DNA from: Lineus longissimus
Lineage: Eukaryota; Nemertea; Pilidiophora; Heteronemertea; Lineidae
DNA: 64,000 bases
Reading direction: 5' to 3'
NCBI RefSeq assembly: GCF_910592395.1
Contig: NC_088308.1
Coordinates: forward strand, 1,302,001 to 1,366,000
Shown here: piece after piece, positions 53,201 through 56,034 of the stretch
Layout: every line of letters begins with the position of its first letter
Position numbering within the stretch: the first letter of the stretch is position 1
The notes under the pieces: model-generated
The model's database searches: none
What the model saw: only the letters and a program-made list of their open reading frames with translations
Told to the model about the DNA's origin: nothing
Program-made: the position numbers and the translations under genes

Positions 53201-56034
53201 TTACCGTGGGTATCGTAGTCCAATGCACATTGCCCTCATGGCAGCACCACACCCCCCTCCTCTGAAAAAGAAACAAGATTATCATCTATCTAGAAAAGTG
53301 GGTGTTCCACATTTCAAGATTCTGAAGGGCCAGCCATACTTAGGATCAAATGCACATATCACTAAGTCACATGTATCTGAGGAGACCACTTGTCAAACAA
53401 ACTTTGAAAAATTCTGAAATTCTAGTAGACCACAGGGGCCATTAGTTACAGAAATCACATGTTTTTTATTGAGACCAGTGACAGTGCACTGCCAGTGAAC
53501 CTGCAGTTATCAAAGTCAGCTCTCTCTGTTCAAGCTTATGGCTCACAACACTCTTCATCTTTCTGTCTGGTTGGATAACATCAATACGTCATCAAGCGAT
53601 TATGTACTATAGAGACAACTTAGTCAGTTGGTAAATGTGCCGTTTGCAACGATGTTGCCTGTCGCTCAATTAGGGATGTTCTAAGGTCAATATATGACCT
53701 TCATGGTGAAATGACAGGCCGAGTAACGTACTGGTGACCTCACATTGTCTGGTCAAATCCACTACTCCACTAAATGTCACAACTGACATGTTTCTCGTAC
53801 AGAGTTTCCTGAAATCAACCCACCATTTTGTCATACAAGTCATCTGAAGGTGGGAAAAAGGATGGGGAGAAACATCTTTATTATGTTGGGTAGAGTGCAA
53901 GCATGATGGAAGATATCCTGAGGAAATCAGGGGTTCATATGTTTGCTTCTCTGACCATGCACAACTTCTCACATCCATGCAGAAAAAGAAAATATCTGAT
54001 GTCCATACATAATTAGGTTTTCATCACAAAAATCTGTCCAAGCCAAGATCAAGAAAACAGAACATACCGAGTATCAAATGGGATCTGGTAACCACCTTTA
54101 ACTGTATAGTCAATTAAGTGCATTGAGTTCGTACAAGAGCGCCCTACAAGAAAATAGGAGGAACATGTTTTAGAATACTGCATGTGCATGAAGTTCCCTT
54201 CAGTTGATTTGATTACAGAATCATTGCACCAGGTCTTTCCCAGTCAATGGCTTTACACCAACATTGCTTTTTTTTTCCTTTTTCACACATTGATGAGCCA
54301 AGTAAGGAATAAACCTAATTGATCCTTTTACAATGACTCATCCCTTATAGATTTCAAGCAACTGTGTGTGAAAGAGGAAAAAGAATGCACTTTGTCCTAG
54401 CTCTTTCCACGCTGTTTCCTTTGAGACCTGGTGCAAATATTATGTAAACCAATACAACTGTGACATGGTGCCAGGACTCATTCTTACCTATCATTGAACT
54501 TTGTATAATACCCATCTTTTCTCAGTGGTCTTAATTTCCTACACTGTTCTTTACATGCAGAACCTGGGGTTAGAAATAAAACCACGCTCATTCATTGCAC
54601 ATTGCAGCGATCTCTGACCTACCCTGAATTGAATGGGATTAGGTAACCACCTCTCCTAGTAGGATTAAGTTCCCTTGTAGAAAATTGACAGGTACCACCT
54701 AAAATGGAGAGGAAGGGGCAATGATGGGTCCACCTGTATCAGCCAAACTTATATTGCTCACTTCCTCACTTCATACCCTCACCTTGGAATGATACTGTAA
54801 AGTTCCCCGACTATTAAGTATGGGGAAGTATTACATTGTGCTCACATGCTCGTGCAAGTGATTCATTCAGTACTAAAAGGTTCTTTATCACATAAGTCTT
54901 CCAACAGACAAAACTAAAGATGCCAAATTCAGCCATGATCTGCACCATCCAGGCTGTTACGTACTTGCACATCCTCCCTCTTCTCACGTCGTCTTGCCAT
55001 TAGTACATCACATCGTAACATTGCACTATCAAGCTGCAATGATAGCACCAACAATGCTTGAGGTCTAGAAAGAGCTTGTAGAAGCCCTGGATGTGTGGGA
55101 GATATGCCAATTTGGTTTTGTCTATGTCACCAAACATGCCACAATGTGGCATGTTTGGTGACATTTAGTGCCATTATTGTGACTTTGTCCTCACCTGGGG
55201 ATCGTCCTATCATATCATTCATACATTCTTTATACTTCTCAGCCAGCTTAAGATAGAGGTACTCCTTGTCTGGCCTATGTCCTGAATCCACCAATGCTGA
55301 AGAAGAATACAACATTTGTAAAGAAGAGCAGACTCCAGGTGCTGTGGTAAAGTGCAATAAAACTTCCTGTACTGTGAAGCTACTAGGAGCATCACTCCAC
55401 CTGAAAGGATGCTAACATGCACTCATTTGTACTCCAGGGTTGGGAGCAGCAGAGTAAGGTTGGGTGTTTTGTGGAAGGACACAGAGATGATTGGAGACAA
55501 AGCCTAAAACATGTTAAAAATACTAAAAACAAGAAATGTTTTCTGGTTTTCTGCTGTGACATCAAAGTAAGGGACATCCAAGATTTGGGGAGGCTGAGTT
55601 AAACCCTACCTTCAGCTGTTGCTAGATGCATCACTGTGTCATCACTTACTTTCCATTTAGGTTCTGAAATGCAAAAATCATACAATGAGTAACTGCACTA
55701 TCTACATGATAAATTTTCTGTTAGAAATTTAAACTGAATATTGTTGCCAAGCAATTTTCAAAATAAGTTAGAATGTCCTGGGTTATCCATTGGCAGAAAC
55801 ACAAGTGGTAAAGCCCTTTAATCTGAACAATCAGGACAAAACTCCCACTTGAAAGGTGACAATCAACTTACTTGCAACATGAATGTTTTCAACTCCACCT
55901 AAAGCAGCGGCCTCCTTGTGGATCACTTCACCAGAATGGCAAAATTCCCACTTGCAATTGCGAAAACCAAGTGCATCACCGACACCACTCAACACCATTG
56001 CAGCAACAAAGTGGTCCTCTTTGTCCTTGTCCAT
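50209..56034 (-). CDS. ADPRH: ADP-ribosylarginine hydrolase
   Basis: Exons in transcription order: 56034-55872, 55663-55610, 55296-55195, 54698-54623 or 54143-54068 (alternatives), 53261-53205, 52851-52730, 52263-52158, 51624-51451, 51159-51109, 50905-50803, 50469-50209. This gives 422 residues (human 357), all phases closing. The ADP-ribosylglycohydrolase fold is clear: [15 protein letters not shown] at the start, the metal-binding [14 protein letters not shown] (about 60-70), [55 protein letters not shown], and the second metal site [11 protein letters not shown] (about 304-313). The pattern fits ARH1, which removes ADP-ribose from arginine using two magnesium ions, so catalytic residues appear intact. 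The last exon adds a Pro/Val/Ser-rich tail of about 60 residues absent in the human enzyme. In-frame sequence upstream of the chosen ATG is read as 5' UTR. Confidence 0.95.
54068..54143 (-). CDS. ADPRH alternative exon 4b
   Basis: 76 nt, phase 1 in and phase 2 out, flanked by consensus AG and GTATGT. It encodes [16 protein letters not shown], then [10 protein letters not shown]. It is homologous to exon 4a and can replace it without a frame change. Confidence 0.88.
54623..54698 (-). CDS. ADPRH alternative exon 4a
   Basis: 76 nt, same phases as 4b, flanked by AG and GTAGGT. It encodes [16 protein letters not shown], then [10 protein letters not shown], which is closer than 4b to the PFNS found in human ADPRH. 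Joining it directly to 4b would break the frame. Confidence 0.88.
55124..55164. repeat. Perfect 41-bp palindrome in an ADPRH intron
   Basis: Arms 55124-55143 and 55145-55164 are perfect inverted copies (CACCAAACATGCC type) around a single central A. The palindrome lies 31 bases downstream of the 5' splice site that follows ADPRH exon 3. Confidence 0.95.

Follow-up and report, generated by a model that had tools for sequence, protein, structure and literature searches.

Three tandem 76-nt exons, very probably mutually exclusive, in the ADP-ribosylarginine hydrolase gene ARH1 of Lineus longissimus

ARH1 is regarded as a single enzyme with a narrowly defined task; can one ARH1 gene supply several versions of it by exchanging one exon? 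We analyzed a 64,000-nt stretch of the genome of the ribbon worm Lineus longissimus (contig NC_088308.1, positions 1,302,001 to 1,366,000; hereafter the window, with positions counted from its first letter), which carries an intact ADPRH/ARH1 gene on its minus strand (56034 to 50209). A first-pass annotation had proposed that two exons of this gene, 54698-54623 and 54143-54068, form a mutually exclusive pair. Both exons are real, and their coordinates, 76-nt length, AG/GT borders and phases are as claimed; the pair, however, is a trio, since a third exon (54563-54488), 59 nt downstream of the first, had been overlooked. The overall best explanation, to which we assign a probability of roughly 80%, is that three tandemly duplicated, mutually exclusive exons give rise to ARH1 isoforms likely differing in ADP-ribose affinity or protein-substrate preference.

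Three homologous exons at one position of the gene

The three exons, designated 4a (54623..54698), 4b (54488..54563) and 4c (54068..54143), lie on the minus strand, like the rest of the gene, between exons 3 and 5. Each is 76 nt long and bordered by AG and GT, and all share one phase, entering after 1 base of the Gly100 codon and leaving 2 bases into the codon of residue 125. The encoded segments run GTC...FNS in 4a, SAC...FND in 4b and RSC...FDT in 4c, with 4a ending in GGYLIPFNS(G) and 4c in GGYQIPFDT(R), where the residue in brackets comes from the shared codon (also R after 4b). Amino acid identity is 9/24 between 4a and 4b, 9/24 between 4a and 4c, and 5/24 between 4b and 4c. The gene has 11 coding positions joined at canonical splice sites and encodes 422 aa with any single exon 4, whereas skipping all three exons, combining any of the three possible pairs, or including all three leads to a premature stop (tested on exons 1-6). 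The frame argument made for two exons therefore holds for each of the three, and the 76-nt exons very probably constitute a mutually exclusive cassette, as judged from sequence.

We then asked how readily such exons could arise by chance, using an ARH1 profile of 122 rows (121 database proteins shorter than 600 aa and human ARH1; the Lineus protein P0001 and 8 longer proteins were excluded). The profile was slid over all AG-76 nt-GT intervals on both strands; among 494 intervals, 145 of them open, 4a, 4b and 4c ranked 1 to 3 with scores of 47.4, 26.3 and 20.8 bits, respectively, vs -21.1 bits for the fourth best. In a simulation control (100 sequences of 64 kb, 5973 open intervals), the top score was -11.4. 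Chance is excluded for the trio because its scores lie far above those of all real and simulated intervals, and the homology noted by the first-pass annotation for two of the exons extends to the third. A fourth copy was ruled out, the next interval scoring -21.1 bits with splice sites and -3.8 bits without them.

We also mutated one exon neutrally to the observed divergence, a procedure that presupposes that one exon descends directly from another. Four such tests were made, and each ended with 0/20000 runs that kept the frame, the splice dinucleotides and the score. Because neutral runs never reproduced the exons, selection has most likely kept 4a, 4b and 4c protein-coding. Compared with 115 ungapped family members, the family-like 4a lies within the range (13/115 score lower), and 4b and 4c are outliers; 4a is therefore probably the ancestral-type exon, with 4b and 4c derived.

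Apart from the cassette, the gene is an ordinary ARH1 gene, and the three-exon cassette in it is real. Isoform 4b is identical at 422/422 residues to a Lineus longissimus database protein (P0001), which is named "ADP-ribosylhydrolase ARH1-like isoform X3" in NCBI and whose 90%-identity cluster comprises 5 member sequences on 1 contig. The name "isoform X3" implies that no fewer than three isoforms are annotated for this gene, and we infer that the others carry 4a and 4c. With isoforms of the gene already in the database, the novelty lies in the three-way cassette and in its position at the ligand contacts. The ADP_ribosyl_GH domain (PF03747) is the sole Pfam domain, at 204.3 bits in isoform 4a and 209.2 bits in isoform 4b (cut-off 26.2), and the nearest solved structure is that of ARH1, as opposed to ARH3 or DraG. 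The protein retains E25, D55, D56, C129, G130, H163, Y263, D302 and D304 (human numbering).

The exchanged segment and the ligand contacts

Aligned with human ARH1, the swapped segment corresponds without gaps to residues 101-124, plus the shared codon for 125, and spans pyrophosphate and adenine contacts. The first-pass annotation had placed it directly before the conserved GGCGAAM block; it is indeed close to the active site, but it does more than adjoin it, as the segment itself contains two ADP-ribose contacts (101-103 and 124). In human ARH1, Gly101/Ala102/Ser103 contact the pyrophosphate and Ser124 contacts the adenine (PMC6309922). The cassette varies both: residues 101-103 are GTC in 4a, SAC in 4b and RSC in 4c, and residue 124 is Ser, Asp and Thr, respectively. 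Phe122, found in 120/122 family members, is retained in all three.

The constant exons hold the remaining ligand-binding and catalytic positions. Coding exon 1 (55872..56034, start ATG at 56034, identical to P0001) includes the Glu25 equivalent; exon 2 (55610..55663) carries SDDTVMH, with human Asp55/Asp56; exon 3 (55195..55296) ends in GRSP and 1 nt of the Gly100 codon; exon 5 (53205..53261) supplies the constant Gly127, Cys129 and Gly130; exon 6 (52730..52851) carries the His163 equivalent; exon 8 (51451..51624) encodes the adenosine-binding loop (human 262-271); and exon 10 (50803..50905) carries HSGDSDST, with human Asp302/Asp304. Exons 7 (52158..52263), 9 (51109..51159) and 11 (50209..50469, including the stop codon) complete the coding sequence.

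At the protein level, one ARH1 scaffold would thus be fitted with exchangeable residues 101-124/125 (human numbering). The cassette most likely tunes ADP-ribose binding and leaves the catalytic centre unchanged, and the three isoforms likely share the same chemistry and differ in ADP-ribose affinity or protein-substrate preference; this effect on function is plausible and well placed but unproven. A more far-reaching proposal, which we regard as less likely than not, is a three-position splice switch acting on how ARH1 grips ADP-ribose, by which tissues or life stages would choose the ADP-ribosylated substrates that are erased, or by which a reader-like isoform, most plausibly 4b or 4c, would hold ADP-ribose instead of releasing it.

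Splicing of the cassette and alternative explanations

Under the mutually exclusive arrangement, each mRNA would take exactly one of 4a, 4b and 4c. The intron between 4a and 4b (54564..54622) is, at 59 nt, the shortest of the gene (the others listed measure 203-806 nt); 4a and 4b may exclude each other sterically because this intron is possibly too short for the spliceosome, so that their joining would be hindered. The intron between 4b and 4c (54144..54487, 344 nt) is not too short; here, products containing both exons would be frameshifted and, going by general splicing knowledge, probably removed by nonsense-mediated decay. This intron contains a long imperfect stem, with arms at 54207-54236/54424-54453 and at 54265-54289/54365-54389, a z of -3.57 and 0/100 shuffles as stable. 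A mobile repeat was rejected as its source: a genome search with 54200-54460, in which common words were skipped, matched only itself. Ahead of the cassette, 30 nt into the intron between exons 3 and 4a, stands an inverted repeat (55124..55164, minus strand, z -6.64) whose two 20-bp arms match perfectly across a 1-nt spacer and whose 16-nt core occurs within the window in these arms only. When the longest perfect complements of the intron pairs were compared, the 13-nt one between the 3-4a and 4c-5 introns (53768-53780/55158-55170) alone stood out, matched in length by 1/40 shuffles and unconvincing among six tests; its 55158-55170 arm overlaps the 20-bp hairpin.

Several observations weigh against the proposed functional cassette. 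Docking/selector pairing received no backing, as 0/6 intron pairs formed a significant duplex in a blunt whole-intron test with 30 shuffles each. In the protein database comparison, which rests on the best 120 of 1032 matches, X3 (4b) is the lone Lineus isoform, and no close relative occurs among the 121 database proteins compared, where identity over the constant part reaches at most 67%. Against the 115 ungapped family members, 4b scores above just 1 and 4c, the most divergent exon, below all. Furthermore, 4b has Thr-Lys in place of Ile120-Pro121 (Ile in 102/122 and Pro in 107/122 family members), and 4c alters Leu110, Pro112 and Asn123 (119/122, 112/122 and 94/122, respectively). The protein made with 4b or with 4c could accordingly be weak or inactive.

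The low score and the altered residues of 4c speak for a rival explanation, in which function is confined to 4a, or to 4a and 4b, and 4c is a duplicate in decay that seldom enters the mRNA. The 4c donor, with a score of 6.1, is also the weakest of the three. We nevertheless consider this account improbable: 4c is open, 76 nt long and in phase, its polypyrimidine tract is strong (0.94), it retains Cys103, Gly117, Tyr118, Ile120, Pro121 and Phe122, and in each of the two neutral tests ending at 4c, 0/20000 runs reproduced it. Less probable by a further step, and in our view very unlikely, is a mainly regulatory role, in which skipping or double inclusion would send the mRNA to degradation and so set the enzyme level, the protein differences being incidental. 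The premature stops obtained with zero, two or three exons would suit such a role; a poison exon, however, needs no coding similarity, yet all three exons are ARH1-like, and the isoform X3 protein is complete.

A third alternative accepts the isoforms and competes with the functional part of our interpretation only: the proteins may be biochemically alike, the variation being close to neutral and lying in a surface segment that tolerates change. The 101-103 motif of ARH1 has been termed non-conserved (PMC6309922), and Ser124 and Gly127 are described as not well conserved among ARH1s in passages of PMC7050489; since the published contacts at these positions are poorly conserved, swaps there may matter little. 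In the family, residue 124 varies widely (Pro 57, Lys 22, Glu 13 and Ser 10 of 122). On the other hand, 4b and 4c also alter near-fixed positions, namely Thr102 (114/122), Leu110, Pro112 and Pro121, the last three conserved as given above. We regard biochemical equivalence as a lesser but serious possibility, well ahead of the other two alternatives, and retain three mutually exclusive exons encoding functionally distinct isoforms as the preferred explanation.

Genome context and comparison with known systems

Whole-genome searches covered the 391-Mb assembly of 30 contigs. A second ARH1 gene was rejected: a protein search (11 candidates scored) returned 9 matches, all in this gene. Of 12 matches to PF03747, 2 lie in the ARH1 gene and the others on the contigs labeled C6, C7 and C10; in five stretches taken from these three contigs, the ARH1 query matched nothing. 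These contigs contain other loci of the ADP-ribosylglycohydrolase family (L019, L020, L022 and L023, on C10, C7 and C6). The C6 stretch is ARH3-like, by comparison with an ARH3 reference sequence; those on C7 and C10 match only weakly, have diverged and carry GDADT or GGDS motifs. Contig C6 also bears a 247-codon open frame (L010:1246-1989) with an ART domain (77 bits) and the motifs FASTS and EEEFIIPP, which we take to be a signature of arginine-specific ADP-ribosyltransferases. From these motifs, a writer is likely present beside the ARH1 eraser, the encoded protein being a candidate arginine-specific ADP-ribosyltransferase and a possible counterpart of ARH1. Within the window, the divergently oriented neighbor of the ARH1 gene (57797-58852, plus strand) encodes BTB and BACK domains, probably of a Kelch-like protein.

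The closest segments among the 121 database proteins shared 13/25 residues with 4a, 15/25 with 4b and 12/25 with 4c. The match to 4b belongs to a snail protein (P0022), whose segment is 4b-like at positions 104 to 115; it was rejected as a second cassette and is read as shared ancestry or convergence. A 4c-type segment was present in 0/19 proteins returned by a search with the region. Two complete ARH1 motif sets each occur in P0003 (738 aa) and P0004 (711 aa; from the fish Albula), and P0002, from a bivalve, carries a second, degenerate ARH1 copy; these two-copy proteins are either fused genes or fused gene models.

The first-pass annotation knew of no splice-switched ARH1, and we likewise found no description of one in a limited literature search based on partial texts, which is a weak negative. 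The alternative-splicing passages seen in PMC11488344, PMC6414514 and PMC7050489 concern PARG. In the excerpts available, ADPRHL1, which is not ARH1, is mentioned once in PMC7554623, a paper about alternative splicing in cancer, and is listed for alternative promoters in PMC2923625.

Human ARH1 (ADPRH; PDB 6g28/3hfw/6iux) shares the fold, the metal ligands and the adenosine-binding loop of the Lineus protein and matches it in the gap-free length of the segment. The AlphaFold2 prediction, made for isoform 4b only, differs from it by about 60 extra residues placed beyond the fold, mostly with low confidence, and no exon cassette is mentioned for human ARH1 in the parts of the ARH1 literature examined.

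The kind of splicing is itself known. PKM exons 9/10, ketohexokinase exons 3A/3C and JNK exons 6a/6b are homologous mutually exclusive exons in enzymes; these pairs are equal-sized duplicates, used one per transcript, that replace a functional segment, and PKM exons 9/10 are likewise not a multiple of three. The Lineus cassette differs in having three members rather than two, in belonging to an ADP-ribosylhydrolase, and in swapping ligand-contact residues; within the limits of the partial literature search, ARH1 is a new enzyme for mutually exclusive exons. If the proposed cassette is correct, one genome supplies three natural ARH1 variants that differ only in the ADP-ribose-contact segment, and the determinants of ARH1 substrate preference could be tested directly with isoforms that the gene already provides. 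Some bivalves (Mya, Potamilus and Sinanodonta) similarly possess several ARH1 versions per species with partly differing segments; there, however, whole genes or domains appear to be duplicated, whereas in Lineus the whole-genome search found one ARH1 locus, in which only exon 4 has been multiplied. The Lineus gene would then represent diversification of an eraser enzyme at the level of a single exon, as opposed to the apparent whole-gene duplication in bivalves.
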